64,000 bases of DNA from assembly GCA_003212345.1 (NCBI GenBank), contig QCPZ01000002.1, positions 62,001-126,000 of the forward strand, in the 5' to 3' direction. The stretch is from SAR116 cluster bacterium AG-447-A06. GTDB lineage: Bacteria; Pseudomonadota; Alphaproteobacteria; Puniceispirillales; Puniceispirillaceae. The position numbers and the translations under genes were made by a program. Below are positions 1,198 to 63,899 of this stretch, one piece after another. The notes under the pieces are model-generated. The model was given only the letters and a program-made list of their open reading frames with translations. It did not search any database and was not told the DNA's origin. The number at the start of each line of letters is the position of its first letter. Position 1 is the stretch's first letter.

Positions 1198-1201
1198 AAG
1201 A

Positions 1202-3553: not shown

Positions 3554-3568
3554 TTAGTAGCATGTAAT

Positions 3569-5116: not shown

Positions 5117-5146
5117 CCGCCTTGTCTCCCCAACCGATATTCATGA

Positions 5147-7618: not shown

Positions 7619-7622
7619 TCTA

Positions 7623-10118
7623 TTACCCCTTCATCTTGATATTTTTAGGATCGTAAAGTACATGCTCCTCAACCAGCGTGGCTCGGCGTGGACGGCCCAG
7701 CACATTCACCGATATGTCTGACCCACTTTTTACGGCCTTGCGATCGACAACCGCCATCGCAATTGATGCTCCTACTCGGTGCCCATAGCCGCTTGAGACA
7801 ACCAGCCCCGCATCGGCACCATCAATTAAAACACTACTTAAATAAACTGCCTCGCCAAATGGACCATCATCCTCAGGATCATCCACCACGAGGGTTACAA
7901 ATTCACGGCCGCTGCCTGTCTGACTTTCGCTTTTGAGCGCAGCCCGCCCGACAAAATCTTCCTTGTTGAAATTGACCCAACGGCCAAGCCCAGACTCCAG
8001 CATCGTATAGTCAGATGTCAAATCAGTTTTCCACGATCGATAGCCTTTTTCTAACCGCATCGAGTCAAGTGCCAGCATGCCAAAGGGTCGTAGCTGATGC
8101 GCCTCACCAGCTGCCAAAACAGAGTCATAAACCGAAACAACATCACTCATTTTGCAATGTAGCTCAAATCCAGCTTCACCGGCATATGACACACGGATTG
8201 CGGTCACCTCAAAGCCAGCAATTCTGACTTTCTGATGGCTTAGCCATGGAAAATCTTCAGTCGATGTTGTTTGGCCCATTACCGCCGCCAGAATGGCGGG
8301 CGCTTTTGGTCCAGTCACCAGCAAGGTGGCAAGGTCTCGCGTTACATCAGCGATATTAATACTTTTGTTTTTTGGCAGACTGGCATTCAGTAAATCACGA
8401 TCATGCCAATATGCACCTGCACCAGTCATCAACAAGAAGTCATTTTCAGCAAAGCGTGTCACAGTCATTTCGCTCAAAACCTTGCCTTTTGGTGAGGCAA
8501 AATAAACGAGACCAATGCGGCCAAAGAGTGGCAAATTACCAGTGATTTGCGTCTTCAACCAGTCATCTGCACCCACCCCAGTGACATGAAACCGAGAGAA
8601 TCCAGTCAACTCTATAATGCCAGCATGGGCTGCAACATGACGGCACTCATCCCCAACCGTATCAAACCAATGCTGGCGATCATAGCTATTAGCAGCCAGG
8701 CGGTCATCGTCATTTGATGGGAACCAGTCAGCTCGTTCCCAGCCACCATAGCTGCCGAATTCGGCTCCAGCTTCTGCAAGGCGATCGTAAAGCGGCGAGT
8801 ATTTAGCCTTACGCCCTGCTGGCCATTGGATCTGCGGAAAATGCATAGCGTATTCATGGCTATAGGTTTCAATAGCTTTGGCCGCCGTGTAGCGAACATC
8901 GACATGATCAGTAAATCTGCGCGGGTCAACCGCCCAGCTATCACTCTCGGTTTCGCCCTCAACAATCATCTCAGCAAGCAGCTTGCCAGCCCCGCCCGCC
9001 TGTACAATACCAAAGGTAAAGACACACGCCTCAAACGCGTTTGGCACACCCGGCATTGGCCCAATTAACGGGAGACCATCCGGTGTATATGGTATGGGCC
9101 CATTTACCACCCTTTTAATGCCCGCAGTACCAAGAAGTGGCACTCGCGCACAGGCATCTTCAATATACCACTCCAAACGATCAAGATCATCGTTATAGAG
9201 CTGAAAGGAAAAGTCATCTGGCATTGGATCATCAGCCTCCAGCCAATGTGCTCGGCAGTTCTTTTCATAGGGGCCAAGCAGTAGACCGTCTTTTTCCTGC
9301 CGCAGATAATAGGAGCTGTCCGGGTCCCGTATCAAGGGCAGCTTTTTATCACGCGCTGTCAATTCAGGAATAGGTTCGGTAATTAAATACTGATGCGCCA
9401 ATGATACGCATGGCACATCACGGCCAAACATCACACCAAGTTCACCAGCGCGGTACCCAGCTGCATTAATCACATATTCAGCACGAATTTCCCCATTTGG
9501 TGTGGCGATTTTCCATTCACCGTCAACATGTTCAACGCCCGTAACAGGACAAAAACGAACAATCTTCGCACCCATATCGCGCGCACCTTTGGCTAATGCT
9601 TGGGTCAATTGTGCCGGATCAATATCACCGTCCAGGGGATCCCACTGGCCACCATAAAGATCATGTGTCTCAAGAAAGGGATACATCGCCTGCATGTCAC
9701 TATTCGACATTTCCTCAAATTCTATGCCCATATGTCGACCCATTGCTTGAACATGCCGGAATTCTTCCATGCGCTGGCGACTGTGCGCCAAACGGATGGC
9801 ACCAGTGACATGATAATTCATGGGGTAACCCACCAGATCACCGAGCTTGCGATAAAGTTGGGTAGAATAGGACTGGATTTTCATCATCGTCCATGAGCCA
9901 ACAAAATTCGGGCAATTCCCTGCTGCATGCCATGTTGAACCTGACGTTAGTTCGCTCTTCTCCAACAAAACACAATCAGTCCAGCCCATTTCAGCCAAAT
10001 GATACAGAACTGAACAGCCAACAGCACCGCCACCAATCACGACCGCACGAGCGGACGACGGAAGTTTCGTCGTCGGCTGCGCCCCCACCTCTTTTGCCAA
10101 ATTCGCCTGATCTGTCAT
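7623..10118 (-). CDS. FAD-dependent dimethylglycine/sarcosine dehydrogenase-type protein with GcvT domain (copy 2)
   Basis: 831 residues, the first gene of the three-gene methylated-amine operon. It has the same architecture as its neighbour: a FAD domain (VVIGGGAVGCSVLYHL; covalent-FAD motif GSTWHAAG), FAO_M domain (PIPYTPDGLPLIGP), then GcvT and GcvT_C domains (FSRFHVTGVGADDWL, VSYAGEAGFELH, KGYRSWKTDL). The motif after the FAD histidine (NCPNFVG) differs from copy 1 (LIAQLRA), so the pair probably take different substrates, for instance consecutive N-methyl amines. The start is ATG 10118, because GGGGAGAG lies 7 bases upstream; a longer frame using TTG at 10136 would contain that ribosome site. 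Confidence 0.87.
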   Translation of the reverse strand: MTDQANLAKEVGAQPTTKLPSSARAVVIGGGAVGCSVLYHLAEMGWTDCVLLEKSELTSGSTWHAAGNCPNFVGSWTMMKIQSYSTQLYRKLGDLVGYPMNYHVTGAIRLAHSRQRMEEFRHVQAMGRHMGIEFEEMSNSDMQAMYPFLETHDLYGGQWDPLDGDIDPAQLTQALAKGARDMGAKIVRFCPVTGVEHVDGEWKIATPNGEIRAEYVINAAGYRAGELGVMFGRDVPCVSLAHQYLITEPIPELTARDKKLPLIRDPDSSYYLRQEKDGLLLGPYEKNCRAHWLEADDPMPDDFSFQLYNDDLDRLEWYIEDACARVPLLGTAGIKRVVNGPIPYTPDGLPLIGPMPGVPNAFEACVFTFGIVQAGGAGKLLAEMIVEGETESDSWAVDPRRFTDHVDVRYTAAKAIETYSHEYAMHFPQIQWPAGRKAKYSPLYDRLAEAGAEFGSYGGWERADWFPSNDDDRLAANSYDRQHWFDTVGDECRHVAAHAGIIELTGFSRFHVTGVGADDWLKTQITGNLPLFGRIGLVYFASPKGKVLSEMTVTRFAENDFLLMTGAGAYWHDRDLLNASLPKNKSINIADVTRDLATLLVTGPKAPAILAAVMGQTTSTEDFPWLSHQKVRIAGFEVTAIRVSYAGEAGFELHCKMSDVVSVYDSVLAAGEAHQLRPFGMLALDSMRLEKGYRSWKTDLTSDYTMLESGLGRWVNFNKEDFVGRAALKSESQTGSGREFVTLVVDDPEDDGPFGEAVYLSSVLIDGADAGLVVSSGYGHRVGASIAMAVVDRKAVKSGSDISVNVLGRPRRATLVEEHVLYDPKNIKMKG

Positions 10119-49372: not shown

Positions 49373-51055
49373 ATGCCCAGTCTGCGTCATGAAAAATACC
49401 AACCATTTATCGGTCCCGATCTCAGCGACCGGCAATGGCCTAATCAACAGATCAAATCAGCACCTGTTTGGTGTTCGGTCGATTTGCGCGACGGCAACCA
49501 AGCGCTCATCGAGCCCATGGATAGTGTCCGCAAGATGAAAATGTTCGAAATGCTGGTGGCGATGGGCTTTAAAGAAATTGAAGTTGGCTTCCCCGCTGCA
49601 TCAGATACTGATTTCAATTTCCTGCGGGAATTGATTGAAGGTGGTCACGTGCCGGCTGATGTGACGATCCAAGTGCTTACACAAGCACGCGAACATCTGA
49701 TTGATCGGACCGTTGACTCATTACGTGGCGCTCCCAATGCCATTTTGCATCTTTATAATTCGACAAGCACCTTGCAACGGCGGGTTGTCTTTAAAGCAGA
49801 TCGTGACGGCGTTAAGCAAATAGCGACCGACGGAGCAAAGATGGTGGCGGACCGTTTGGCAAATGCTGGAGCAGACAACCTGCGCTTACAATATAGCCCC
49901 GAGAGTTTCACTGGCACTGAACTTGATTACGCGCTTGATGTGTGTGAATCAGTAATGGAGATCTGGCAATCAACCCCTGAAAATCCTACGATTATCAACC
50001 TACCTGCCACAGTTGAAATGTCAGCACCGAATATTTACGCAGACCAAATAGAATGGATGGGCCGCAATTTTAGTGACCGAAAGTCAGTTATTTTGTCACT
50101 GCACCCGCATAATGATCGGGGCTGCGCGGTTGCAGCAACTGAACTTGGGCTAATGGCGGGGGCAGACCGTGTTGAAGGAACTCTATTTGGCAATGGCGAA
50201 CGCACTGGCAATGTAGATCTGGTCACACTTGGTTTAAACATGTTTACTCAAGGTGTTAATCCAAATCTGGACTTTTCTAACATAAATAATTTGATTGAAA
50301 CAGCCGAATTTTGCAACCAATTACCGGTTCACGAACGTCATCCCTATGCCGGAAAATTAGTCCACACCGCATTTTCAGGCAGCCATCAAGATGCAATCCG
50401 AAAAGGTATAGAAGCTCTAGCAGAGGCAAATGACGATGTATGGGAGGTCCCCTATTTACCCATTGATCCCGCGGATATTGGCCGTACATTTGAAGCTATT
50501 ATTCGAGTGAACTCACAATCAGGGAAAGCTGGTGCAGCCTATCTACTTGAAGCGGATCACCACGTACGATTGCCCCGCAAAGCTGAAATTGAATTTTCTA
50601 GCATTGTTCAGAATGAGGCTGACACGACTGGAAAAGAAATTACCAGTCAACGCATCTGGGAACTAGCCGAAGAGCATTACATCAACCCACATGGCCCCTT
50701 TGAGCTTTTGAATTTTGAATCTGGCCGGGCCAGCCGAGCCAGCGAGGCTGAACGTATCACTGCGACGCTGCTGCATGACGGTAGGAAAGTTGACATTAGC
50801 GCTACTGGTAACGGACCGATATCGGCTTTTGTTAATGCCATGCGCAATGAATTTGGGCTTAGCTTCAGGCTTGCTGATTTTGGTCAAAACACCCGTTCAG
50901 CCACATCTAAGGCTGAAGCTGCCGCCTATGTGGAACTGGTACATGACGTAAATGAAACGCAACATTCAGTCTTCGGAGTTGGAATTGATACATCAATTAC
51001 ACTCGCGCCGATCCGTGCTGTGGTTAGTGCCATCAATAAACTAGCAACCCAATAA
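49373..51055 (+). CDS. leuA: 2-isopropylmalate synthase (LeuA type 2)
   Basis: 560 residues, the length of the type 2 enzyme (Corynebacterium-like) rather than the roughly 510-residue E. coli type. The N-terminal catalytic region has WCSVDLRDGNQALIEPM with the metal-binding R-D-G-N-Q, then LHPHNDRGCAVAATELGLMAGADRVEGTLFGNGERTGNVDL, ending in the leucine-binding regulatory domain. It makes the first committed intermediate of leucine synthesis from acetyl-CoA and 2-ketoisovalerate. It stands alone, apart from other leu genes. No leucine-rich leader peptide was seen upstream. Confidence 0.96.
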   Translation: MPSLRHEKYQPFIGPDLSDRQWPNQQIKSAPVWCSVDLRDGNQALIEPMDSVRKMKMFEMLVAMGFKEIEVGFPAASDTDFNFLRELIEGGHVPADVTIQVLTQAREHLIDRTVDSLRGAPNAILHLYNSTSTLQRRVVFKADRDGVKQIATDGAKMVADRLANAGADNLRLQYSPESFTGTELDYALDVCESVMEIWQSTPENPTIINLPATVEMSAPNIYADQIEWMGRNFSDRKSVILSLHPHNDRGCAVAATELGLMAGADRVEGTLFGNGERTGNVDLVTLGLNMFTQGVNPNLDFSNINNLIETAEFCNQLPVHERHPYAGKLVHTAFSGSHQDAIRKGIEALAEANDDVWEVPYLPIDPADIGRTFEAIIRVNSQSGKAGAAYLLEADHHVRLPRKAEIEFSSIVQNEADTTGKEITSQRIWELAEEHYINPHGPFELLNFESGRASRASEAERITATLLHDGRKVDISATGNGPISAFVNAMRNEFGLSFRLADFGQNTRSATSKAEAAAYVELVHDVNETQHSVFGVGIDTSITLAPIRAVVSAINKLATQ

Positions 51056-51070
51056 ACTCACATCATCCCC

Positions 51071-51883
51071 CTATTTGCCCTGCCACTCGGGTTTTCGCTT
51101 TTCTAAAAAGGCACGAACCCCTTCAGCAAAATCAGCACTAACATAGCTGCGTTTTATCAAATCCCGATCATTTGGCAAGGGAACGGCATTACGCAGACGG
51201 CGTAGCCCTTCTAAGCTGGCCTGAATAGTCAAAGGAGCCATCGTTTTCATGCGGTCAGCAATCTCTGTAGCGCGCGCCATCAACGCATGTTGATCAGTTA
51301 GAATCTCATGAACAAAGCCACTTGCAAGCAAGCCATCAGCATCGATTAGTTCAGCAGTCAAAATCATATGAGCAACGCGGGACTCGCCAAATAACGCTGT
51401 GAGGCGCCGCAAATTTGATATTGCTAGGCAATTGCCAAGGGTGCGGGCAATTGGCATCCCTACAACCGCGGCAGTACTGGCAACTCGAACATGGGCTGCA
51501 GATGCAATCACCAGTCCACCTCCCGTCACAGCACCGTGAAGCGCGGCTATCACCGGCACTTTGCATGTCTCAATATGACTGATTACAGTCTCCATCTGGG
51601 CTTCGTAAGCCTGCCCGTCCTCGGCACTGGTAAAATCAGTAAATTGGCCAATATCAGTCCCCGCGGCAAAGGCTTTGTCGCCAGCACCTGAAATGATAAT
51701 GGCTTTAATATGTCTGCTATCATCAGCCGTGCCAGCTATGGAGCAAATCTCCGCGAGATTTTCATACATATTGAACGTTAGAGAATTGCGAGAATTCGGC
51801 CGGTTCAAAATCACATGGGCAATATGATTGTTAATATGAACAAGTAGTTCATCACAATCAGTGTGCATGTTATTGGTACTCAT
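51071..51883 (-). CDS. Enoyl-CoA hydratase/isomerase family protein
   Basis: 270 residues with the crotonase fold: ILNRPNSRNSLT, the oxyanion-hole segment AFAAGTDIGQF, and VIAALHGAVTGGGLVIASAAHVRVAS. In place of the usual second glutamate region it reads GMPIARTLGNCLAI, so the catalytic acids of a classic hydratase (E-G-T-x-x-G at the second site) are not obvious. It may thus act as an isomerase, hydrolase or lyase. It is convergent with leuA, 15 bases apart. CoA-ester substrate is likely; its identity is unknown. Confidence 0.82.
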   Translation of the reverse strand: MSTNNMHTDCDELLVHINNHIAHVILNRPNSRNSLTFNMYENLAEICSIAGTADDSRHIKAIIISGAGDKAFAAGTDIGQFTDFTSAEDGQAYEAQMETVISHIETCKVPVIAALHGAVTGGGLVIASAAHVRVASTAAVVGMPIARTLGNCLAISNLRRLTALFGESRVAHMILTAELIDADGLLASGFVHEILTDQHALMARATEIADRMKTMAPLTIQASLEGLRRLRNAVPLPNDRDLIKRSYVSADFAEGVRAFLEKRKPEWQGK

Positions 51884-51947
51884 GTTGCCGCCCTCTCAAT
51901 CACAACCTAGCCTGGTGTGCGCTTGCAACGCCAGCGCTTTGCCCCAT

Positions 51948-53120
51948 CTAATCACCTTTAAGTATATTCATCGCCGCATCAACGCCACCTTTTTGGTGCG
52001 GTATATCCGCTTTCGAGAGGCCCATTTCAACCCCGCTTAAAGTACCGAGCAGCATTAGATCATTAAAATCACCAAGATGGCCAATCCGGAAAACCTTTCC
52101 AGCCAACCGTGATAAACCATTACCAAGCGACATATTAAAGTGTTTTAGAACACCGGCACGAAATGCATCAGCATCGTATCCATCCGGAAGAAGCACCGCA
52201 GTCAACGAGCTAGAAAAATCTTTTGGTTCCTGACATAGCACTTCAAGCCCCCATGCCTGCACCGCTTTTCGCGTGGCAGCGGCATGCCGATCATGCCGCC
52301 GGAACACATTTTCGAGCCCCTCCTCATGCAACATATCGATAGCTTCGGCTAGTCCGTATAAAAGGTTGGTTGCGGGAGTGTAGGGAAAAGCGCCTTCCTT
52401 GTTAGCAGCAATCTGGTCTTCCCAATCCCAATAACTTCGGCGCATGCCACCTTTGCGGGCCAAAGCCAACGCCTTTTCCGATACGGCATTAAATGACAGT
52501 CCGGGCGGCAGCATTAGCCCCTTTTGCGAACCGGCAACCGTAACATCCACGCCCCATTCATCGTGTCGGTAATCAATCGAACCCAAGGATGAGATTGTAT
52601 CGACAAGTAGTAGTGCGGTATGATCAGCATTATCCATTGCCAAACGAACATCAGCAATCCGCGAGGTTGATCCAGTTGAAGTTTCATTATGTACAACACA
52701 AACGGCTTTGATGCGTTGGTCCATATCCTGCCTAAGTCGATCTTCGATTTGCTGCGGATCAACCCCACGGCGCCAATCCGTCGTAAGAAACTCGGTCTCA
52801 ATACCAAGTCGTGTCGCCATCTTGTGCCACAGACTCGCAAAATGGCCAGTCTCAACCATGAGCACTAAATCGCCATCTTGCAAACAATTTACCAAAGCTG
52901 ACTCCCACGCCCCAGTCCCAGATGCCGGAAAAATTACGGTATGGCTTTTTGTTTTGAAGATAGTTTTCATACCAGCAAGACATTTTGTGCCAATTTCAGA
53001 AAATTGCGGTCCACGGTGATCAATCGTCGGGTAATCCATTGCCCGAAGGATGCGATCTGGCACATTCGTGGGACCAGGTATCTGAAGAAAATGGCGGCCA
53101 GCATTGTAAGATTTGGACAT
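51948..53120 (-). CDS. Serine-glyoxylate-type class V aminotransferase
   Basis: 390 residues. The opening FLQIPGPTNVPDRILRAMDYPTIDHRGPQF is the hallmark of serine/alanine-glyoxylate aminotransferases. The PLP lysine is in VTVAGSQKGLMLPPGLSF, and PATNLLYGLAEAIDMLHEEG follows. It converts serine and glyoxylate to hydroxypyruvate and glycine, or alanine in the AGAT variant. ATG 53120 is preferred, since GGAG lies 9-10 bases upstream; an extra start at 53135 would include it. It is divergent from a 2-hydroxyacid oxidase with a GntR site between them. Confidence 0.88.
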   Translation of the reverse strand: MSKSYNAGRHFLQIPGPTNVPDRILRAMDYPTIDHRGPQFSEIGTKCLAGMKTIFKTKSHTVIFPASGTGAWESALVNCLQDGDLVLMVETGHFASLWHKMATRLGIETEFLTTDWRRGVDPQQIEDRLRQDMDQRIKAVCVVHNETSTGSTSRIADVRLAMDNADHTALLLVDTISSLGSIDYRHDEWGVDVTVAGSQKGLMLPPGLSFNAVSEKALALARKGGMRRSYWDWEDQIAANKEGAFPYTPATNLLYGLAEAIDMLHEEGLENVFRRHDRHAAATRKAVQAWGLEVLCQEPKDFSSSLTAVLLPDGYDADAFRAGVLKHFNMSLGNGLSRLAGKVFRIGHLGDFNDLMLLGTLSGVEMGLSKADIPHQKGGVDAAMNILKGD

Positions 53121-53234
53121 AAAGCAATTCTCCATTTCAAAATGATGGCCTGCTTATCGAAAGAGCCTTTTATTTAGTTGCTTCAAACACGCAAGATTGT
53201 GTTTGAGTATTTCTTTGTATAACTATAAAATATA

Positions 53235-53246
53235 ATTGTATACAAT
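53235..53246. promoter_or_regulatory. GntR/FCD-type operator
   Basis: ATTGTATACAAT is a perfect 12-base palindrome in the gap between the aminotransferase and the FAD/Fe-S oxidase, 17 bases before the oxidase ATG. It fits the T-x-G-T-x-x-A-C-x-A consensus bound by FadR/FCD-class GntR regulators. A regulator of that class is encoded at the end of the same operon. The site would overlap the oxidase promoter or leader and could control both divergent genes. Confidence 0.65.
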
Positions 53247-53262
53247 ATTCTAGGTGTCTCTT

Positions 53263-56200
53263 ATGGCAGGTGGCAGGAAATTACCAAGTTTTAAAAATTT
53301 ACAACGATCACTAAAAGGGGAACTCCATGATGATGGCTTTACCTGTGGCCGTTACGCCACCGATGCATCAATCTATCAAATGATGCCGCATGGTGTCGTC
53401 GTTCCTAAAACTAACGATGACATCAAAGCTGCCATTGCATTTTGCAAAGATCAAGGCATGGCTCTTCTGCCACGCGGCGGGGGTACATCCCAATGCGGGC
53501 AAACCGTCAATCATGCGCTGGTTCTTGATAATACAAAATATCTGAATTCAATATTGGAACTCGACGTCAAAAACCAGCGTTGCGTGGTACAACCGGGCAT
53601 AGTGCTTGATGAATTAAACCGCCAACTGAAACCGCATGGGCTTTGGTTCCCAGTTGATGTTTCAACATCTAGCCGTGCAACAATTGGCGGCATGGCGGCG
53701 AATAACAGCTGTGGAGGCCGCTCAATCCGTTATGGTATCATGCGGGATAATGTCCATGCCATTGATGCGTTTCTTGCCGATGGTAGTCATGCCCATTTTG
53801 GTGCTTATGATCCAACAAAATTGCCACCCGCAGGCAGGCTTGGCAAGGTTCTGCCGGATTTATTAAAGCTAGGCGCAACACATAAAGATGATATCCTATC
53901 CAGCTTTCCAAAAGTTCTCCGCCGGGTCGGGGGGTATAACATTGATGCACTGATTCCGGATGCGATGGCCCTACGCCCATATGGCAAAACAGGCGACGGC
54001 ATCAATCTTGCTCACCTTCTAGTCGGCTCAGAGGGCACCCTTGCCTATTCGACTGCAATCACCTTGAAACTATCGCCCTTGCCCATACGCAAAGTTATGG
54101 GACTGTGTCATTTTCCTACCTTTTACAAGGCCATGGACGCAGCACAGCACCTTGTCACGCTTGATCCAGTTGCTGTTGAACTAATTGATAACACGATGCT
54201 TGATCTGGCGAGATCGATCGCACTGTTCCGGCCCACAGTTGAAAAATATATTAAGGGGCAACCTGCCGCTATTCTAGTGGTTGAATTTGCCGAAAACGAA
54301 GAAGCAGAGAACACTCAGCGCCTTGCTGCATTAGAGTCGATGATGGCTGACCTTGGCTTTGGCTGGGAAAATCAAGAAGACTTTAATGGTGGCACCGTTA
54401 TCCTTACCGAAGGAGATGATCAGGCACGGATTAGCGAGATGCGGAAATCTGGCCTTAATATCATGATGTCGATGAAAACATCGGCCAAACCAGTTTCTTT
54501 CGTCGAAGATTGCGCGGTCGACTTGACGGACCTTGCGGAATATACTGATAAGCTCACTAAAATTTTTACCAAATATAAAACCACAGGCACATGGTATGCG
54601 CACGCTTCCGTTGGGTGCCTACATGTCCGGCCTGTTCTTGACATGAAGAGTGGCGATGACGTGGCTACAATGCGCAAAATCGCAGAAGAAGCCTTCCAAT
54701 TGGTCAAAGATTATGGGGGATCACACTCAGGTGAGCATGGCGATGGCATTGCCCGATCAGAATTTAATGAAGTGATGTTTGGAAAAAAGATGGCAGCTTT
54801 GTTTCAGCAAGTGAAACAAATACTTGACCCACAGTCCATTTTTAACCCCGGCAAAATTACCAACTCCCCAAAAATGGACGATCGTTCATTATTCCGCTTT
54901 GCACCCGGCTATAAAATTGATGACTTTCCAACAAGATTAAATTGGAATGCATGGCCCGGAGCGGCCGGCGGGCTCCAAGGTGCTGTGGAAATGTGCAATA
55001 ACAATGGTGCCTGCCGTAAACTAGAAGGGGGAGTGATGTGCCCTTCATTTCGAGCAACACACGACGAGCGAGACTCCACCCGCGGACGGGCTAATAGCCT
55101 ACGTCTCGCATTATCGGGTCAGCTTGGTCAAGACGCTCTTGTAAGTGACGCAATGGATGAAACAATGAAGCTATGCGTGTCGTGCAAGGCCTGCAAACGC
55201 GAATGTCCCACCGGCGTTGATATGGCACGAATGAAGGTTGAGATTACAGCCCTGCGCACCGAGGCGAAAGGCCTCTCATTCCATGATTGGCTCATCGCTC
55301 ATCTGCCTCGCTACGCCCCCTATATGGCTGCGATGGCCCCTTTAATCCGCCTGCGCGACATTGTTCCAGGAGCCGCATGGCTAAGCGAAAAGCTTACCGG
55401 ATTTACCGCCCGCCGTCCCCTACCTCGCTGGCAACGCAGGTGGTTCCGCGATAATGAACTACCTCAAACCCCAAATAAGGGCGTCATATCGACAACAAAA
55501 AAGCCTCCCCTTTTACTATTTATAGACAGCTTTAACCGCTATTTTGAGCCTGAAAACCTGCGCGCAGCTATACGGGTATTTCAGGCCACTGGTTATGATG
55601 TCTTTGTTCCCTCAACTCCCGACAGCGGCCGGCCTCTCTGTTGCGGGCGAACCTATCTGTCAACTGGCCTAATTGATCTTGCTCGTGAGGAAGCTGGACG
55701 GTTAGCAGCGACTCTTGCCCCATTTGCACGGGTAGGCATACCTATTGTGGGACTTGAGCCATCCTGTACATTGGCGCTTCGCGATGAAATTCCCGCCTTA
55801 TTGAATAATCAAGATTCCAAAGATGTTGCGTCAGCAACCTTGACGTTCGAAGAATTGCTTGCTCGTGACAAGCCGAGTTTGTCATTGAGATCCACCAAAT
55901 CTAGGGCACTATTGCATGGCCATTGCCACCAGAAAGCCTTTGATGCGGTGAGGCCCATAGAGGAAGTTTTATCATGGATCGAAGGACTAGAAGTCGAAAA
56001 AATTGAGACAAGCTGCTGCGGCATGGCTGGAGCGTTTGGCTACGGCGCGGACAATTTTGACATTTCAATGAAAATGGCAAACGCCAATCTTCTTCCGCGA
56101 ATTCTTGAAGCCTCCCCGGAGACCATGATTATCGCTGACGGTACGTCATGTCGTTGCCAGATCAAGGATGGAACAGCGCGCGAGGCAAAGCATGTTGCAA

Positions 56201-56268
56201 TTCTCCTCGACGAATTGATGAAAGCGGCTAATAATAATCTTAAAACTCAGAGTGAAAAAAGGCTATGA
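53263..56268 (+). CDS. FAD-linked 2-hydroxyacid oxidase fused to Fe-S (CCG) domain, YdiJ-like
   Basis: 1001 residues combining a GlcD-like FAD part and a GlcF-like part. FAD_binding_4 has LPRGGGTSQCGQTV (about residues 68-80) and FAD-oxidase_C ends with HSGEHGDGIARSE. Two 4Fe-4S motifs follow, C-N-N-N-G-A-C-R-K and C-V-S-C-K-A-C-K-R-E-C-P, then CCG motifs in RPLCCGRTY and ETSCCGMAG. Such proteins oxidise D-2-hydroxyacids (lactate, glycolate, 2-hydroxyglutarate) at the membrane and pass electrons to quinone. The divergent glyoxylate aminotransferase argues for a glycolate- or hydroxypyruvate-linked role. ATG 53263 is preferred over GTG 53254. Confidence 0.87.
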   Translation: MAGGRKLPSFKNLQRSLKGELHDDGFTCGRYATDASIYQMMPHGVVVPKTNDDIKAAIAFCKDQGMALLPRGGGTSQCGQTVNHALVLDNTKYLNSILELDVKNQRCVVQPGIVLDELNRQLKPHGLWFPVDVSTSSRATIGGMAANNSCGGRSIRYGIMRDNVHAIDAFLADGSHAHFGAYDPTKLPPAGRLGKVLPDLLKLGATHKDDILSSFPKVLRRVGGYNIDALIPDAMALRPYGKTGDGINLAHLLVGSEGTLAYSTAITLKLSPLPIRKVMGLCHFPTFYKAMDAAQHLVTLDPVAVELIDNTMLDLARSIALFRPTVEKYIKGQPAAILVVEFAENEEAENTQRLAALESMMADLGFGWENQEDFNGGTVILTEGDDQARISEMRKSGLNIMMSMKTSAKPVSFVEDCAVDLTDLAEYTDKLTKIFTKYKTTGTWYAHASVGCLHVRPVLDMKSGDDVATMRKIAEEAFQLVKDYGGSHSGEHGDGIARSEFNEVMFGKKMAALFQQVKQILDPQSIFNPGKITNSPKMDDRSLFRFAPGYKIDDFPTRLNWNAWPGAAGGLQGAVEMCNNNGACRKLEGGVMCPSFRATHDERDSTRGRANSLRLALSGQLGQDALVSDAMDETMKLCVSCKACKRECPTGVDMARMKVEITALRTEAKGLSFHDWLIAHLPRYAPYMAAMAPLIRLRDIVPGAAWLSEKLTGFTARRPLPRWQRRWFRDNELPQTPNKGVISTTKKPPLLLFIDSFNRYFEPENLRAAIRVFQATGYDVFVPSTPDSGRPLCCGRTYLSTGLIDLAREEAGRLAATLAPFARVGIPIVGLEPSCTLALRDEIPALLNNQDSKDVASATLTFEELLARDKPSLSLRSTKSRALLHGHCHQKAFDAVRPIEEVLSWIEGLEVEKIETSCCGMAGAFGYGADNFDISMKMANANLLPRILEASPETMIIADGTSCRCQIKDGTAREAKHVAILLDELMKAANNNLKTQSEKRL

Positions 56269-56272
56269 ACAG

Positions 56273-56935
56273 ATGGACAAACTGCCATCGGCAAAAATCA
56301 GAGACTCCCTAGAGCAGCGTATCATCGAGGGAGAACTCGGCAATGGCAAGCGCCTTGATGAAAATGAGTTGTCTAACTTTTATGGCGTTTCGCGAACACC
56401 TGTACGAGAAGCATTGCAACGACTTGCCGAGTCTGGCCTTGCTGAACATATACCGCGCCGAGGTACATTTATTCGGTCACCAAGTCTAAGCCAACTTGTT
56501 GAAATGTTTGAAGTGATGACAGAACTTGAATGTATGGCGATCAGACTTGCCGCCCGTAGGGCATCCTCTAATGATATTAATGCCCTTGAACGCGAAAATG
56601 AAACCTGCCGTGAAGCTGTTTTTGCAAATGACCAGAAGAAATATTACGAGGTGAACGCCCGCTTACATGGTCGAATCTACGAAATGTCTGGCAATAATTT
56701 TCTTGCAAATGAGGCCCGCCGCCTACATGACCGACTGCGTCCATTTCGTCGCCTTCAATTGCGGGTAAGGGGCCGGATGGAAGAGTCAATGGCCGAGCAT
56801 GACATTATTTTGGAGGCGCTGCGTGCTGGGGACGCTAATCGTGCGATGGAAACGATGAAAAAACATATCACTATCGTTGGTGTCCGCTTTAATGATCTTG
56901 TATCCAATTTTAATATGATCATGGGCAACAAATAA
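56273..56935 (+). CDS. GntR-family transcriptional regulator (FCD/FadR subfamily)
   Basis: 220 residues. The N-terminal winged helix has GELGNGKRLDENELSNFYGVSRTPVREALQRLAESGL and IPRRGTFIRSP. The C-terminal FCD domain holds Asp/His metal ligands (EVNARLHGRIYEMSGN, AEHDIILEALRAGDANRA). It begins 4 bases after the oxidase stop, so it belongs to the same operon. ATG 56273 is in frame, with AAGG 10 bases before; GTG 56252 is less likely. It probably senses a 2-hydroxyacid or related metabolite and binds the palindrome at 53235. Confidence 0.9.
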   Translation: MDKLPSAKIRDSLEQRIIEGELGNGKRLDENELSNFYGVSRTPVREALQRLAESGLAEHIPRRGTFIRSPSLSQLVEMFEVMTELECMAIRLAARRASSNDINALERENETCREAVFANDQKKYYEVNARLHGRIYEMSGNNFLANEARRLHDRLRPFRRLQLRVRGRMEESMAEHDIILEALRAGDANRAMETMKKHITIVGVRFNDLVSNFNMIMGNK

Positions 56936-57100
56936 ACGTGGCTCATCTTTTACGATAACTTAACGATATATCGGCCATTCCCCTAGGCGAATGTTCCCCA
57001 AAATGGGCCTCTTGGATAACACAGCGGATTATGTCAATATTTATCGACGAATCAAGGCCACGCATAGAAAGCACGTCCAATTAGGTCGGGAGCAAAATCA

Positions 57101-58900
57101 ATGCCAGACTCCAATGAATTGAATGGCGGACAGGTTATCATTGATTATTTGATTAAGGAAAAAGTGCCTTACGTGTTTGGCCTTTGCGGACATGGCAACA
57201 TTGGCCTTATAGATGCGATGCACGAACGTCAGGACGATATTGCAACAATCTCGGTTCATCATGAGAGTGTTGCTGGTTTTATGGCTGATGTTTATTACCG
57301 GGTATCCGGCCAGCCCACAGCAACATTTACATCATGTGGCCCTGGTTCAGCAAACTTGCCCATTAGCCTTGGTAATGCTTTTTTTGACTCGGTTCCGTTT
57401 TTAGCCATTACCGGCAACGTCCCGACCACGCAGTTTAACCGTGGTGCATTTCAAGAAACCTATCGTCATTACCAGGCAGATTTTCCATCTACTGTTCAAG
57501 CTTATTGCAAACGTGTTTATCAACCGACAAGAGGCGAACAAATGCCATTGATGGTTCGGCAAGCATGGAAAACAATGATAACTGGCAGACCTGGACCAGT
57601 TGTACTTGATGTCCCTTTTGACATTTTTAAGGAAACCGCGGCAAGTGAAGCACCCAATCCTGCTTTATGGTCAGCAAATATTTCGTCTCGCTGCGGGGCT
57701 GACCCAGAAGGTGTAATTAGGGCAGTCGATATGCTGCTGGCTGCGAAAAAACCAGCCATTGTAATTGGTCAAGGCGTTCGATATGGCGGTGCCACGATGG
57801 AACTGCGGGCTCTATCTGAGAGATTACAAATCCCTGTAGCCTCATCAGCAAGTGGGCTTGGTGCAATTCCAGTTGATCATCCCTTATCACTTGGACTGGT
57901 TCAGCGAGGCGGCACTTATCAAGCAAACCATGCCTGCCGTCAAGCTGATGTATTGATGGCTCTTGGTGTTAGGTTTGACGACCGCACTTCCAGCTCCTGG
58001 ATCCCAGGCTATTCCTTCACAATCCCGCCAACAAAATTGATTCATGTTGATATTGATCCAGAAGAAATCGGACGAAATTACCCGGTTGCACTTGGTTTGA
58101 TGGCTGATGTTCGGACGTTTTTACGGCAAGTTTTAGCCGAACTAGACCGCCGCGGTCACTCCAAAGAACCAACTGCTGACAGCCAAAAATGGCTGGCAAT
58201 GATCGATAGCTATCGTAACGAATGGAATGAATTTACCGCTCCCGGTTTTGTTGATGATAGCTCACCCATCAATCCACAGCGGGCGGCTGTGGAAATCGAC
58301 AAGGCTCTTCCCGAGGATGCCATTTTAGTCAGTGATATTGGCGTGCACCATAACTGGCTGTTACAATTTTGCACCCCAACCCGACCAGACTCGTTGATTG
58401 GATCTATGGGATTTGGTCCAATGGGATTTGGCGTTGCTGGTGTGATGGGCGCCAAGTTGGCAGCCCCAGAACGACCCTGCGTATCTGTGTGTGGAGATGG
58501 CGCTTTTTTCATGCACGCCAATGTTTTAGGCACTGCAGTCGAGTATAATATTCCCGTAGTGTGGGTGGTTTGGAACAATTATGCCTATGGGTCTATCCGT
58601 GGGCTCCAACGGGGCTATCTAGATAGTCGTGAACTAGCAACTGATTTTCATCATCCAGAAACTGGAAAACCATATAATCCAGATTTTGCCGCAATGGCCC
58701 AATCAGCGGGCGTTGACGGTGTGAGCATCGACCATCCAGGTGATTTAGGCGATGCAATTTTAGCAGGAATTAATAGCAATCGGCCCTATTTGATTGATGC
58801 AAAAATCAATGGTGATTTAAATCCGCCCGGTGCAGGTGTTTGGGAAATTCCGGGCCTTGGGATAAACCAACCAGCAATAGGTAAACGCTTTATTCCCTGA
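57101..58900 (+). CDS. Thiamine diphosphate-dependent enzyme (acetolactate synthase-like)
   Basis: 599 residues with the three ThDP domains. The N-terminal Pyr domain has GLCGHGNIGLIDAM and the catalytic Glu55 (HHESVAGF). The central domain contains PGPVVLDVPFD, and the PP domain has the metal motif VCGDGAFFMHANVLG with the closing W-V-V-W-N-N. Glyoxylate carboligase has Val in place of this Glu, so this is not a Gcl. It resembles decarboxylases/carboligases of the ilvB-like superfamily of uncertain substrate. Position behind the glyoxylate/GntR locus suggests a 2-oxoacid substrate. GGGAG precedes ATG by 9 bases. Confidence 0.85.
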   Translation: MPDSNELNGGQVIIDYLIKEKVPYVFGLCGHGNIGLIDAMHERQDDIATISVHHESVAGFMADVYYRVSGQPTATFTSCGPGSANLPISLGNAFFDSVPFLAITGNVPTTQFNRGAFQETYRHYQADFPSTVQAYCKRVYQPTRGEQMPLMVRQAWKTMITGRPGPVVLDVPFDIFKETAASEAPNPALWSANISSRCGADPEGVIRAVDMLLAAKKPAIVIGQGVRYGGATMELRALSERLQIPVASSASGLGAIPVDHPLSLGLVQRGGTYQANHACRQADVLMALGVRFDDRTSSSWIPGYSFTIPPTKLIHVDIDPEEIGRNYPVALGLMADVRTFLRQVLAELDRRGHSKEPTADSQKWLAMIDSYRNEWNEFTAPGFVDDSSPINPQRAAVEIDKALPEDAILVSDIGVHHNWLLQFCTPTRPDSLIGSMGFGPMGFGVAGVMGAKLAAPERPCVSVCGDGAFFMHANVLGTAVEYNIPVVWVVWNNYAYGSIRGLQRGYLDSRELATDFHHPETGKPYNPDFAAMAQSAGVDGVSIDHPGDLGDAILAGINSNRPYLIDAKINGDLNPPGAGVWEIPGLGINQPAIGKRFIP

Positions 58901-58939: not shown

Positions 58940-60586
58940 CTATTTAACTTCTTTGGCTGTTTCACGAAGCACGTTTTTCTGAATTTTACCGGTTTGAGTT
59001 TTTGGAAGAGCAGAAAAAACAAAGTGACTTGGTAGCTTATAAGCCGCTAAATGTTCACGGCAGAAAGCCCGTAAATCATCAGAAGTAGGAGCATCAATGC
59101 CAGGCTTTAATGTGATGAAGGCACAGGGTGTTTCACCCCACTTATCATCGGGACGGGCCACTACAGCGGCTTCCATAATATTGGGGTGCTGATAGAGCGC
59201 TTCCTCAACTTCCAAACTGGAAATATTCTCACCGCCCGAGATAATGATGTCTTTCGACCGGTCTTTCACTTCGGCGTAACCATCGGGATGCATAACTGCA
59301 AGGTCGCCGCTGTGGAACCAACCACCCGCTGATGCTTTTGCCGTATCTTTTGGATTTTTTAAATACCCCTTCATAACCGTATTCCCGCGGAGCATAATCT
59401 CTCCGATAGTTTTGCCATCTGCTGGCACTGGCTGCATTGTCTCAGGGTCGACCACCTGGCAATCACCCGCCAAAACGTGTGGCACACCCTGACGAGCCAT
59501 TTTCTGGGCGCGAGTTGAGAGCGGTAAACTTGCCCAATCCTCCTGCATTTCACAGATAAGTGACGGGCCATAAGATTCCGTCAACCCATAGAGATGGGTG
59601 ATTTTAAACCCCATTGTTTCCATATCGTCAATCACCTTGCTTGGTGGGGCTGCGCCACCAGTTGCTACTTGTACCGGAACAGACCTAACGGTTCGTGGCT
59701 TCGCGTCATCAGGCGCATGAATCAGCATTGACAATACAATTGGCGCTGCTGCCATGTGGGTCACGTCCTCAGCATCAATGAGACGGAACACCTCAACAGG
59801 GTCTATCGCCCTCAGGCAGACATGCGTTCCACCAACCAAGGTTACTGACCAAGGATGGGTCCATCCGTCGCAATGAAAAAGCGGCAAGGTCCACAAATAA
59901 GTGCTACTCGAGCTCAGCCCTATCGCCAACACATTGCCGAGCGCGTTCAAGGCCGCCCCGCGATGTGAATAGACAACACCTTTAGGATTGCCCGTTGTGC
60001 CGGATGTATAACTAAGCGATATAGGCATTGTTTCATCCCGCAAATCGAACAAGGGCTCTTCTACATTACCGCTAGCAAGAAATGTCTCATAATCTGTCCC
60101 ACCGATCATTCGGCCAATATCAACTGCCGGGTCATCGATACCAATAACTTGGATTTTGCGGTCGCACATCGCCAATGCTGCCTCGGCAACATCCGCATAT
60201 TCCCTATCAACAAAAAGCATTTGGCTTTCACCATGACTTAGAATAGTTGCAATGGTTTTGGCATCAAGCCGGGTATTAATCGTGTTAAGGACAGCCCCCG
60301 TCATTGGCACAGCAAAATGCAGCTCTAGCATTTCAGGCACATTCGGACACAGAACAGAGACAGTGGTTTGTGGCTCTATACCAGCACCGATAATGGCCGC
60401 AGCAAGCTGCCGGCAGCGCGATCCAAATTCGGCGTAACTGATACGACGCTCGCCGTAGACAATCGCCGTTTTTTTGGCAAAAACATAACTAACTCTCTGG
60501 ATGAAATGAATTGGTGACAAGGGTTGTATATCAGCACCTTGCATATCCAGATTAGAATATAGTGAGTCAGTTTGTACATCAGACAT
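58940..60586 (-). CDS. Acyl-CoA synthetase (AMP-forming), LvaE-like
   Basis: 548 residues of the ANL superfamily: adenylate motif SYTSGTTGNPKGVVYSHRG, TLPLFHCDGWTHPW, the HLYGLTESYGP loop, and the hinge GDLAVMHPDGYAEVKDRSKD. The C-terminal catalytic lysine is in T-Q-T-G-K-I-Q-K. It activates a carboxylic acid with CoA. The size and motifs also fit DmdB-like medium-chain ligases, but the neighbours (acyl-CoA dehydrogenase, SDR, kinase) match LvaE of the levulinate operon. AAGGGG lies 8 bases before ATG. It is the last gene of a three-gene minus-strand unit. Confidence 0.88.
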   Translation of the reverse strand: MSDVQTDSLYSNLDMQGADIQPLSPIHFIQRVSYVFAKKTAIVYGERRISYAEFGSRCRQLAAAIIGAGIEPQTTVSVLCPNVPEMLELHFAVPMTGAVLNTINTRLDAKTIATILSHGESQMLFVDREYADVAEAALAMCDRKIQVIGIDDPAVDIGRMIGGTDYETFLASGNVEEPLFDLRDETMPISLSYTSGTTGNPKGVVYSHRGAALNALGNVLAIGLSSSSTYLWTLPLFHCDGWTHPWSVTLVGGTHVCLRAIDPVEVFRLIDAEDVTHMAAAPIVLSMLIHAPDDAKPRTVRSVPVQVATGGAAPPSKVIDDMETMGFKITHLYGLTESYGPSLICEMQEDWASLPLSTRAQKMARQGVPHVLAGDCQVVDPETMQPVPADGKTIGEIMLRGNTVMKGYLKNPKDTAKASAGGWFHSGDLAVMHPDGYAEVKDRSKDIIISGGENISSLEVEEALYQHPNIMEAAVVARPDDKWGETPCAFITLKPGIDAPTSDDLRAFCREHLAAYKLPSHFVFSALPKTQTGKIQKNVLRETAKEVK

Positions 60587-60611
60587 GGCTTAATCCCCTT
60601 CAGTCTAAACT

Positions 60612-61820
60612 TCAGTCTTGGCCAACACCCCATTCCCAAAACTCTTCGTTCGCTTGCTGTAAAAATCGACTTATGACCATTTGATGGACTTCGGTTGCAC
60701 CATCGACAAGCAAGGCCTGCCTGCCATAACGATAAATCCACTCAAGCACGGTATCCGTTGAATAACCTCGCGCACCACAGATCTGGATCGCATCACTTGT
60801 AACACGATTTAACAACTGTGAGACATGAATTTTTGCCATTGAAATGTCTTGCCGCGCCTTTGAACCCTGTTCGATCCGCCATGCCGCACGCATAACCATG
60901 ACCCGACCAATTTCTATATCCATTGCCGCTTGCCCAAGTTTCATTTGAATTGATTCGCGATCAATTAGCTTGATACCAAAACCACTTCGGTTGCTAGCAT
61001 AATCACTGGCAATATTAACGGCCCGCTTCGCGAGACCTAACCAGCGCATACAATGCGTCAACCTCGCAAGTCCAAGCCGGACCTGAGTTACTTTGAGTCC
61101 TTTTCCTTCACCCATAAGCACACGGTCATCATCTAATTCCATTTTATCAAAAATTAATTCGCAGTGCCCGCCGTGCTCCTCCGGTCCCATAATGCCAATT
61201 CGCCGCTCTATATGCCAACCCGGATCATCACGGTGAAACAAAAAAGCCGTTAGCCCATCGCGGGCAGCATCGCCAGTTTTTGCCACTAGAATAAAATGTG
61301 CAGCCTCACCTGCTCCAGTAATATACCATTTACGCCCATTGATGACCCATTTTCCGTTCACCCTTTTTGCGGTTGTCCTTATCATGCTCGGATCGGAGCC
61401 ACCACCCGGTGCAGGCTCGGTCATGGCAAAGGATGACCGAACGTCACCATTGATAATCGGTTGAAGCCAACGGTCTTTTTGCTCCTTGGTTGCGACCTTG
61501 TTTAAAATATACATGTTCCCATCATCGGGAGCCGCACAATTGAACGCTGCTGGTCCAAAAATAGAATAATTCATCGCTTCATATAAAACAGCCATACCGG
61601 TTGGCCCATAGCCAAGCCCACCCTGTTCAATTGGGATTTGTGGCGCCCATAGGCCAGCCTGTTTAACCTTTGCACGAAGGCTTTGCAGCACGGCTAAATC
61701 GATATTACCGTATGCATCAAAATTTTTTTCATCAGCCTCCAGTGGCACGATATGTTTCGTCACAAAGGCCTGAAGCCGAGCGTGATCCGCCTCTAATTTG
61801 GAATCAATTGAAAAATCCAT
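60612..61820 (-). CDS. Acyl-CoA dehydrogenase family, ACAD10/11/LvaC-like
   Basis: 402 residues. The flavin-binding parts FAMTEPAPGGGSDPSM and GRKWYITGAGEA are as in acyl-CoA dehydrogenases. At the catalytic base position (Y-E-G-T in normal ones) it has V-D-G-A-T-E-V-H, so the base is Asp373, the form seen in ACAD10/11. Those enzymes do not act as simple dehydrogenases: with an APH-type kinase they remove phosphate from 4-phosphoacyl-CoA to give an enoyl-CoA. The kinase is encoded just divergent at 62.8 kb. The CoA ligase follows by 26 bases. Confidence 0.87.
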   Translation of the reverse strand: MDFSIDSKLEADHARLQAFVTKHIVPLEADEKNFDAYGNIDLAVLQSLRAKVKQAGLWAPQIPIEQGGLGYGPTGMAVLYEAMNYSIFGPAAFNCAAPDDGNMYILNKVATKEQKDRWLQPIINGDVRSSFAMTEPAPGGGSDPSMIRTTAKRVNGKWVINGRKWYITGAGEAAHFILVAKTGDAARDGLTAFLFHRDDPGWHIERRIGIMGPEEHGGHCELIFDKMELDDDRVLMGEGKGLKVTQVRLGLARLTHCMRWLGLAKRAVNIASDYASNRSGFGIKLIDRESIQMKLGQAAMDIEIGRVMVMRAAWRIEQGSKARQDISMAKIHVSQLLNRVTSDAIQICGARGYSTDTVLEWIYRYGRQALLVDGATEVHQMVISRFLQQANEEFWEWGVGQD

Positions 61821-61865
61821 AAATGGCCAGTCCCTTTTTCTTGTGCTGTATTTGTTGTGCTAATG

Positions 61866-62600
61866 TTAAAGACCAGAGCTCATACCTCCGTCAATGGTCA
61901 GAGTTTCACCAGTCATATAGCTATTGGCCGGATCAAGAAGAAATAGGAGTGCAGGCATCAACTCTTTAGGTGTTGCAAAGCGGTGTAAAGCGGTGCGTTT
62001 TTGCAGCTTTACACCAGCGTCGCTCTCCAGAAACTCACGATTCAAATCTGTTATCACATAGCCCGGTGCAAGTGCATTAACTCGAATACCCTCACGCGCC
62101 AGTTCGATGGCAGCAGCCTTCGTAATTTGCATAACCGCCGCCTTGCTGGCCGCATAAATGCCAGTATGCGGCAATGGACGGTGTCCAAGCACCGAAGCGA
62201 CATTTACAATCACTCCGTCACCTGCCGCCTTCAAGGCCGGAACCGCAGCCTGTATTGTCCATAAGCTACCTAGGAAATTCGTATCGATTAGCTGCCTTAC
62301 CTCATCTTCATCACTTGAATGAATGGCAGCCGTCATAGCAATGCCAGCATTATTCACCAGAGCATTAAATTGGCGGCCAAATAGCTGCTCTTTTAAGGCT
62401 TGGCTATCTCTTACATCAGCAATGATTACTCCATGATTGTCACCTGGCAAATCAGCCAGCATCGCCGTAAGCGCCTCCTTTTTACGGCCTAACGCGAGAA
62501 CTGAGCCACCTGCCCTAGCAATTTCCCGACAAAACAAAGCCCCCAGCCCGCGCGCCGCACCAGTTACAAGAAACGACTTCCCATCAAGTAGTCTAGTCAT
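61866..62600 (-). CDS. SDR family oxidoreductase, LvaD-like
   Basis: 244 residues. The nucleotide motif T-G-A-A-R-G-L-G (13-20), N-N-A-G at 83-86, and the catalytic Ser136, Tyr149 and Lys153 (Y-A-A-S-K) are all present. So it is a normal, active short-chain dehydrogenase. In the levulinate operon LvaD reduces the 4-oxoacyl-CoA to 4-hydroxyacyl-CoA; the same role is inferred here from the neighbours. GGAGG precedes the ATG. It is the first gene of the minus-strand unit, and shares its control region with the divergent kinase gene. Confidence 0.85.
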   Translation of the reverse strand: MTRLLDGKSFLVTGAARGLGALFCREIARAGGSVLALGRKKEALTAMLADLPGDNHGVIIADVRDSQALKEQLFGRQFNALVNNAGIAMTAAIHSSDEDEVRQLIDTNFLGSLWTIQAAVPALKAAGDGVIVNVASVLGHRPLPHTGIYAASKAAVMQITKAAAIELAREGIRVNALAPGYVITDLNREFLESDAGVKLQKRTALHRFATPKELMPALLFLLDPANSYMTGETLTIDGGMSSGL

Positions 62601-62825
62601 GCAATTCCTCCGAAACCAAAATCATTGCAGGGCAGAATCTTTGCGCGCCATTTAGGCCCCATGCGCGTTTATTACGTATGTCTTTTTTGTTTCAACACCT
62701 GAAACTGCATAGTAAACTTACGCTAGCTGGGCCAAAATGGTCAAAACAATCTTGTCATGATTGGCCAACTCAGCACCGCTATTTGTTGTTTGAGTCAATA
62801 TCGATAGTAAAGCAAGGCAGTTTCC

Positions 62826-63899
62826 ATGTCAGAAAGCGACAGTAACGAAGACATCACAGCCGAAAAAACCATCATTGAACCGCTGGCAGATTGGTTACAA
62901 CAAGCGGCTCCGCATATCGGCACTCCCATCAGCCTTAGCAAATTTTCTACCGGCCAGTCCAACCCCACTTACCGGCTTCAGACCAGCCATGGTGGCAAGG
63001 TTGGCCGGTTCGTTCTTCGGACCCAGCCGAGTGGCGTGTTACTCAAATCAGCACATGCGGTTGATCGAGAATATCGCATAATGAAAGCATTAGGATCGAG
63101 CGCTGTACCGGTTCCTGACATGATTGCTATGTGTGATGATCCAAAAATCATTGGCGTGAAGTTTTTTATTATGCGCGAAGTCGATGGCAAAACTATCTTC
63201 AGCCCCACCCTTGATGGATATAATATGGCGGACCGAGGCACCCTGTTCTTTGGCCAAATTAGTATCCTGGCGGCCCTAGCCAAGCTTGATCCATTTTCGC
63301 TTAGCCTTAAAGATTTTGGTAAAACATCAGGCTATATTGAACGCCAACTGAGAACATGGACACGCCAATATCGTGCCTGTGAAACCGACACAATTACGGG
63401 AATGGAATTTTTGCTCAAACAATTACCTGCCTGCCTCGCAACTGAACTTCCAGGACTTTGCGTTATTCATGGTGATTTTCGACTAGATAATCTTCTGATC
63501 TCCAATCAGATCGATATTGCTGCATTAATTGATTGGGAATTAAGCACGCTCGGCCCAACTTTCGTTGATCTTAGCTATTGGTGCGCCATGCTACGGATGG
63601 ACTCGGGTTGGCCAATTGGTGGGCTTGGCGGTGTAGACAGAGCCAACCTTGGCATTCCTGAAGAGGCCACACTAGTTGACGCCTTTTGTGAGGAAACCGG
63701 CCTTCATCGTCCAGATAATTGGGATGCACTCATCGCGTTTCAGTGTTTCCGTTTTGCCGCTATTTTGCAAGGTGTGCTGAAGCGCCACCTCGATGGCAAT
63801 GCCTCAGCAAACAACGCGGCCTCAGTAGGGTCCCAAGCAAAGCTAGTCGCAGAGCTCGGTGCCAATGTTCTCTTGCAGTATTTGTCATCAAACCGTTAA
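62826..63899 (+). CDS. APH-type phosphotransferase, LvaA-like hydroxyacyl-CoA kinase
   Basis: 357 residues with the aminoglycoside-phosphotransferase fold: N-terminal FSTGQSNPTYRL, the catalytic loop H-G-D-F-R-L-D-N (215-222) and the metal site D-W-E (236-238) in ALIDWELSTLG. In ACAD10/11-type systems such a kinase phosphorylates the 4-hydroxy group of an acyl-CoA. Its genomic partner (the acyl-CoA dehydrogenase with Asp373) is 1 kb away in divergent orientation. AAGG precedes the ATG by 9 bases. The remaining bases to the window end show no gene. Confidence 0.88.
   Translation: MSESDSNEDITAEKTIIEPLADWLQQAAPHIGTPISLSKFSTGQSNPTYRLQTSHGGKVGRFVLRTQPSGVLLKSAHAVDREYRIMKALGSSAVPVPDMIAMCDDPKIIGVKFFIMREVDGKTIFSPTLDGYNMADRGTLFFGQISILAALAKLDPFSLSLKDFGKTSGYIERQLRTWTRQYRACETDTITGMEFLLKQLPACLATELPGLCVIHGDFRLDNLLISNQIDIAALIDWELSTLGPTFVDLSYWCAMLRMDSGWPIGGLGGVDRANLGIPEEATLVDAFCEETGLHRPDNWDALIAFQCFRFAAILQGVLKRHLDGNASANNAASVGSQAKLVAELGANVLLQYLSSNR

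Follow-up and report, generated by a model that had tools for sequence, protein, structure and literature searches.

The stretch analysed here, 64,000 nucleotides of the SAR116 cluster bacterium AG-447-A06 (contig QCPZ01000002.1, positions 62,001 to 126,000; hereafter the window), contains adjoining genes for an AMP-forming acyl-CoA ligase, an acyl-CoA dehydrogenase (ACAD), a short-chain dehydrogenase/reductase (SDR) and an APH-fold kinase. With a probability of roughly 0.8, these four genes constitute an lva-type module which brings 4-oxo and 4-hydroxy acids, probably short ones of about C4-C6, into beta-oxidation. In this module, a one-protein, LvaB-free kinase of the ACAD10/11 type (K1) would replace the LvaAB pair of the levulinate operon lvaABCDE of Pseudomonas putida KT2440 (Rand et al., 2017, as far as described in PMC6692424). 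What is new, judging from the sequences compared, is a bacterial lineage featuring an LvaC/D/E-like set but an ACAD10/11-type kinase, i.e., a variant of a known pathway. The reading draws on observed gene content and order, family placement, active-site residues, predicted folds and the finding that K1 kinases and the family DUF6285 exclude each other. As lva reference, an annotated operon copy on a P. aeruginosa plasmid (L123) was used.

Gene content and layout

The original prediction of an APH kinase divergent from an SDR and accompanied by an ACAD and a CoA ligase was borne out, with all four open reading frames (ORFs) being intact and assigned to the Pfam families AMP-binding (ligase), Acyl-CoA_dh (ACAD), adh_short (SDR) and APH (kinase), all far above cut-off. 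On the minus strand, the SDR (244 aa, 61866-62600), the ACAD (402 aa, 60612-61820) and the ligase (548 aa, 58940-60586) follow each other with gaps of 45 and 25 bp, and the kinase (357 aa, 62826-63899) lies on the plus strand, divergent from the SDR at a distance of 225 bp. This order is kept in those same-genus relatives for which enough sequence is available, which excludes a chance arrangement; within the genus, the SDR, ACAD and ligase genes remain clustered. The host genome comprises 2.0 Mb and is 80% complete. Its closest named relative is SAR116 cluster bacterium AG-325-I21 (98% at the ACAD), and further members of the group are Candidatus Puniceispirillum.

Active site and phylogeny of the acyl-CoA dehydrogenase

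At the position of the base Glu in ordinary ACADs, the module enzyme features Asp373, as had been noted beforehand; it lies in a DGATEVH motif aligning with DGPDEVH of ACAD11 and of Mycobacterium 4hr3. In addition, Arg248 and the stretch His256-Cys257-Met258-Arg259 (HCMR), directly preceded by Thr255, are present. The corresponding residues of mouse ACAD11, namely the catalytic D753, HCMR (H634, R637) and R626, set ACAD10/11 and LvaC apart, and R626, HCMR and D753 were shown to matter in ACAD11 (Rashan et al., PMC12440821). In an alignment of 158 ACADs, the complete Arg/HCMR/Asp set occurred in all 107 distinct members of the group containing the module enzyme (clade X) and was incomplete in five paralogs from the same genome. 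Outside the three clades described below, one ACAD has the Asp and neither the Arg nor HCM; by elimination, this is L006 from the same genome (30% identical).

The ACAD tree, a quick search with support from the Shimodaira-Hasegawa-like approximate likelihood ratio test (SH-aLRT) only, resolved the Asp/HCMR enzymes into an ACAD11 clade (including 4hr3), an LvaC clade and clade X. The module ACAD falls into clade X (SH-aLRT 100), thus outside the LvaC and ACAD11 clades and away from the five same-genome paralogs. Phylogeny had been set as a test beforehand, and the enzyme grouped with LvaC and ACAD11 and not with Glu-type enzymes, all diagnostic residues of the former being present. An ordinary Glu-type dehydrogenase is accordingly rejected by Asp373 and by the tree. 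The module ACAD is 42% identical to LvaC of L123 over 387 aa and 32% identical to ACAD11. For LvaC and ACAD11/10, an identity of 56-62% was given (PMC11342911); LvaC of L123 shares 36% identity (54% similarity) with ACAD11 over 324 residues, so the published value may denote similarity or refer to another protein.

Structure models were made from alignments without plasmid-derived rows. The ACAD model (pLDDT, the predicted local distance difference test score, 94.6 without the first Met) is closest to the solved structures of ACAD11 and Mycobacterium 4hr3, with Z-scores of 46.5-47.8 (47.8 and 46.5 being listed for the mammalian ACAD10/ACAD11 system, with PDB 8v3u, 8v3v and 2wbi), followed by a short-chain ACAD (Z 43.6).

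As a separate observation, ACADs near the ACAD11 clade at L116, L208 and L213 (also L117 and L118) keep Asp and HCM and have no kinase of either type considered below within 5 kb.

The kinase and its type

By sequence and tree placement, the module kinase is of the ACAD10/11 type and stands in place of LvaA. It matches PF01636 with 130 bits, and phmmer retrieved 3dxp (E 3e-72) and the ACAD11 kinase domain (E 4e-54); sequence identities amount to 39% with 3dxp, 33% with the ACAD11 kinase domain and 26% with LvaA. The kinase tree separates LvaA-type (K2) from ACAD11-type (K1) enzymes at SH-aLRT 100 and places the module kinase in K1 together with ACAD11 and 3dxp. All residues invariant in both clades, and with them the catalytic ones, are kept (G43, R65, E82, H215, D217, N222, D236, W237, E238, D248). 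Orthology to LvaA is rejected by the 26% identity and the separate clade. Consequently, the original assignment to an LvaA-, C-, D- and E-like set stands for the C, D and E parts (42%, 39% and 54.5% identity) and had to be given up for A. The sole other PF01636 gene of the genome is distant, adjoins an ispH-like gene and looks like a homoserine-kinase-like gene.

Alternatively, the ACAD could be an ordinary electron-transferring dehydrogenase with an Asp base, next to a kinase serving another alcohol, e.g., a steroid or isoprenoid, in the manner of the 25-hydroxy steroid kinase (PMC8449060). APH-fold kinases are diverse, and this steroid kinase ranked second among the fold matches for the modelled kinase (pLDDT 93; Z 28.7, 18% identity); yet the best match, 3dxp, is far nearer (Z 38.4, 36% identity), and 35% identity to the ACAD11 kinase was found over the aligned part, so that the fold search brings the module kinase no closer to the steroid kinase than to the ACAD11 and 3dxp kinases. 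Moreover, HCMR, Arg and Asp, which all 107 distinct clade-X members keep, are not known to be of use in an ordinary dehydrogenase, and kinase and ACAD adjoin across many lineages. This alternative is therefore considered very improbable.

Absence of LvaB

The small gene of L123 labelled "4-hydroxypentanoyl-CoA kinase subunit LvaB" by NCBI belongs to the Pfam family DUF6285 (PF19802), on which a literature search returned nothing. In KT2440, LvaB binds LvaA and both are required on levulinate (PMC6692424). In line with the earlier observation that no LvaB-like small protein is seen at the locus, DUF6285 had no match in the host genome (80% complete) or in any of 15 further genomes from the genus, among them a complete single-contig chromosome, and an LvaB hidden elsewhere in these genomes was rejected on the same result. 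Very divergent LvaB-like ORFs can escape PF19802, as does a look-alike at L220; one following a K2 kinase at L221 gave a weak match. None adjoins the module kinase.

Among the loci fetched, which are related and not independent sequences, DUF6285 was found near 31 of 40 K2 kinases vs. none of 57 K1 kinases, and it is present genome-wide in related genomes with the K2 version (G024, G028, G036). A phylogeny-aware test on six independent pairs on supported branches associated DUF6285 with the LvaA type in 3.8 pairs on average and never the reverse (p 0.125), with too few pairs for significance. Two observations support the proposal that LvaB may be dispensable for the module kinase: DUF6285 is tightly linked to kinases of the LvaA type alone, and ACAD10/11 and a Burkholderia kinase worked without added LvaB (PMC11342911, PMC12440821).

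Proposed pathway

The mechanism of ACAD10/11 (PMC11342911) serves as the model for the proposed steps, each of which is transferred from published enzymes. The ligase would make the CoA thioester, and the SDR, a putative 4-oxoacyl-CoA reductase, would convert 4-oxoacyl-CoA, where a 4-oxo group is present, to 4-hydroxyacyl-CoA. The K1 kinase, as the proposed 4-hydroxyacyl-CoA 4-kinase, would phosphorylate the 4-hydroxyl without LvaB. In the ACAD, the candidate for phosphate elimination from 4-phosphoacyl-CoA, Asp373 would act as the base taking the C2 proton, with Arg248, His256 and Arg259 surrounding the phosphate; by transient hydride transfer to FAD (an internal redox relay), phosphate would be expelled and the hydride returned, releasing 2-enoyl-CoA with no need for an external electron acceptor. 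The breakdown would then be completed by the beta-oxidation enzymes hydratase, dehydrogenase and thiolase. Genes for these steps are present, i.e., a FadB-like gene at window positions 1178-3553, a hydratase gene at 51071-51883 and a thiolase gene elsewhere in the genome.

Comparison with known systems

The module shares with the lva operon its LvaC-, LvaD- and LvaE-like proteins, the ACAD residues Asp, HCMR and Arg and, as proposed, the logic of phosphorylation and elimination. It differs by a kinase of another clade which is divergent from the remaining genes, by the lack of LvaB, by an ACAD in a separate clade and by having no sigma-54 regulator or symporter genes adjoining. With mammalian ACAD10/11 (PMC12440821, PMC11342911), it has in common the K1 kinase, all diagnostic ACAD residues and the fold; nevertheless, kinase and ACAD are separate ORFs which flank the SDR and are read from different strands instead of forming one fused polypeptide, the ACAD is nearer to LvaC than to ACAD11, and the module includes an SDR gene and a ligase gene of its own. 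A kinase and an ACAD encoded apart are likewise known from the bacterium Burkholderia pseudomallei, whose pair Q63VL0/Q63VL1 was able to stand in for the domains of ACAD10 in vitro without addition of LvaB and was described as nearer to ACAD10 than the P. putida proteins (PMC11342911); its likeness to the module is taken from this description. Clusters in Cycloclasticus (L081), Amylibacter (L083) and Kiloniellaceae (L087) feature a clade-X ACAD about 60% identical to that of the module together with an SDR and an LvaE-like ligase, but an LvaA-type kinase followed by DUF6285.

Exchange of the kinase around clade X

Among 240 Alphaproteobacteria sampled, about 35 carry a clade-X enzyme (at least 54% identity). 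For 38 of 57 clade-X representatives, a kinase of type K1 or K2 lies within 5 kb, and 27 of these 38 also have an SDR above 200 bits; in many lineages, the kinase gene adjoins that of the ACAD, and the SDR occurs beside clade-X ACADs in many lineages as well. Both kinase types occur as partners, K1 in SAR116, on Rhodobacterales plasmids (L120, L121, L127) and in Chelatococcus (L122), K2 together with DUF6285 in the Cycloclasticus, Amylibacter and Kiloniellaceae clusters named above and in Paroceanicella (L126). On the best ACAD tree, the kinase type changes at least seven times, with the six independent pairs mentioned above on supported branches, and the K1 partners of clade X occupy three separate places of the kinase tree. 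Due to these changes and this scatter, the tree comparison indicates that the kinase partner is exchanged around a conserved ACAD.

In another SAR116 family, a gene for a HAD-like hydrolase is located directly after the clade-X ACAD in convergent orientation (L023, 2703-3368; L050, 9203-9868), which may be coincidence. Mammalian ACAD10 contains a HAD domain.

Substrate of the module

The evidence points to a 4-hydroxy or 4-oxo acid, perhaps of C4-C6, as the substrate, with levulinate itself being a guess. A literature search on SAR116 and levulinate returned nothing with bearing on the module. The ligase is 54.5% identical to LvaE of L123, both proteins exceed the NF006020 cut-off, and it is the best LvaE match in the genome; KT2440 LvaE acts on C4-C6 acids (PMC6692424). 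The SDR shares 39-40% identity with LvaD of L123 and is likewise the best match in the genome.

Several points weigh against the proposed function. Another ligase encoded elsewhere in the genome shares 50% identity with LvaE, so the LvaE match does not fix the substrate, and the lead of the SDR over its next paralog (38%) as an LvaD match is slight, SDR families being promiscuous. With no more than 32-42% identity to characterised enzymes, the ACAD could differ from them in substrate range. Nineteen of the 57 clade-X representatives had no kinase nearby, some of the stretches being short. Furthermore, at L049 and L224 kinase and ACAD occur with no SDR or ligase found adjoining, so that the core may act on 4-hydroxy and not on 4-oxo acids; at L049 (MED-G04, 3466-8456), genes for a GMC oxidoreductase and for an alpha/beta hydrolase border the kinase and an 80% identical ACAD.

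The same chemistry could thus be directed at another substrate, e.g., medium- or long-chain 4-hydroxy fatty acids (algal lipid peroxidation or oxylipin products) or acids derived from gamma-lactones, with the SDR acting on another carbon (e.g., on 3-hydroxyacyl-CoA) or in the reverse direction. Longer chains are handled by ACAD11 and shorter ones by ACAD10 (PMC12440821), which means that chain length cannot be read from the kinase type; the two loci lacking a neighbouring SDR, the modest match of the SDR to LvaD and a metallo-beta-lactamase-fold protein encoded 3.5 kb past the kinase also agree with such a substrate. Still, the ligase belongs to the LvaE family, with its KT2440 member acting on short acids, and the joint occurrence of SDR, ACAD and ligase in the genus and of the SDR beside clade-X ACADs in many other lineages speaks against it. 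Overall, a substrate of this kind is a serious but clearly less probable option than short 4-oxo or 4-hydroxy acids.

Just past the window (L003, 7897-12176), an alpha/beta hydrolase, a molybdopterin oxidoreductase and the metallo-beta-lactamase-fold protein, which could be a lactonase, are encoded, and ORFs of similar size occur beside the module in the genus.

Control region and neighbouring genes

The divergent region between SDR and kinase (62601-62825) is a putative control region. Nine intergenic regions of the genus were aligned, eight of which contain a conserved block at about 62710-62754. An inverted repeat GTTTCA-N5-TGAAAC at 62689-62705 has exact arms in four of the nine and one mismatch in a fifth.

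Convergent with the module, a genus-specific block (window 51071-58900) encodes an enoyl-CoA hydratase, a BhcA-like class-V aminotransferase (446 bits, cut-off 650), a YdiJ/GlcD-like FAD/Fe-S protein of 1004 aa, a GntR/FCD regulator and an acetolactate-synthase-like thiamine diphosphate (ThDP) enzyme. It is adjoined by a gene for a LeuA-type synthase with a regulatory dimerisation domain (49373-51055). On an Azoarcus plasmid (L124, 4993-13292), LvaC-, D-, A- and B-like genes, a histidine phosphatase, GntR, a ThDP-binding protein and a ligase occur in one stretch; the lva cluster of P. citronellolis also has a histidine phosphatase (PMC6692424).

It is conceivable, albeit unlikely, that the module forms one branch of a wider pathway specific to the genus, in which the ThDP enzyme, the FAD/Fe-S protein (2-hydroxyacid dehydrogenase-like), the GntR regulator and the aminotransferase take part and the 4-oxo acid arises intracellularly. 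The ThDP-GntR-FAD/Fe-S part follows the ligase in the genus, the ThDP gene was found in 11 of 16 genus genomes, almost always together with the module, and was absent from every other relative searched, and GntR and a ThDP protein adjoin lva-like genes in Azoarcus. However, physical linkage alone would yield the same co-occurrence, the Azoarcus ThDP protein is just 28% identical, and the ThDP protein of the window remains below the NCBIfam cut-off for all families shown. Nor was an operator common to both control regions seen, the repeat recurring just once in the window, inside a gene.

Implications

The assignment of phosphorylation and ACAD-type elimination to genes dates only from 2017 in bacteria and from 2024-25 in mammals. 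Through the locus, the unnamed family DUF6285 is connected with LvaB and, among the kinases, with the LvaA type alone, and it becomes testable what LvaB does that K1 kinases manage without. On balance, it seems rather likely that bacterial 4-hydroxyacid degradation is modular at the kinase step, with clade X having repeatedly swapped LvaA plus LvaB for the one-part ACAD10/11-type kinase, or the reverse, and that SAR116 uses the one-part version to feed on 4-oxo and 4-hydroxy acids in surface seawater. The gene set also allows a search for the use of 4-hydroxy and 4-oxo acids in abundant marine bacteria.

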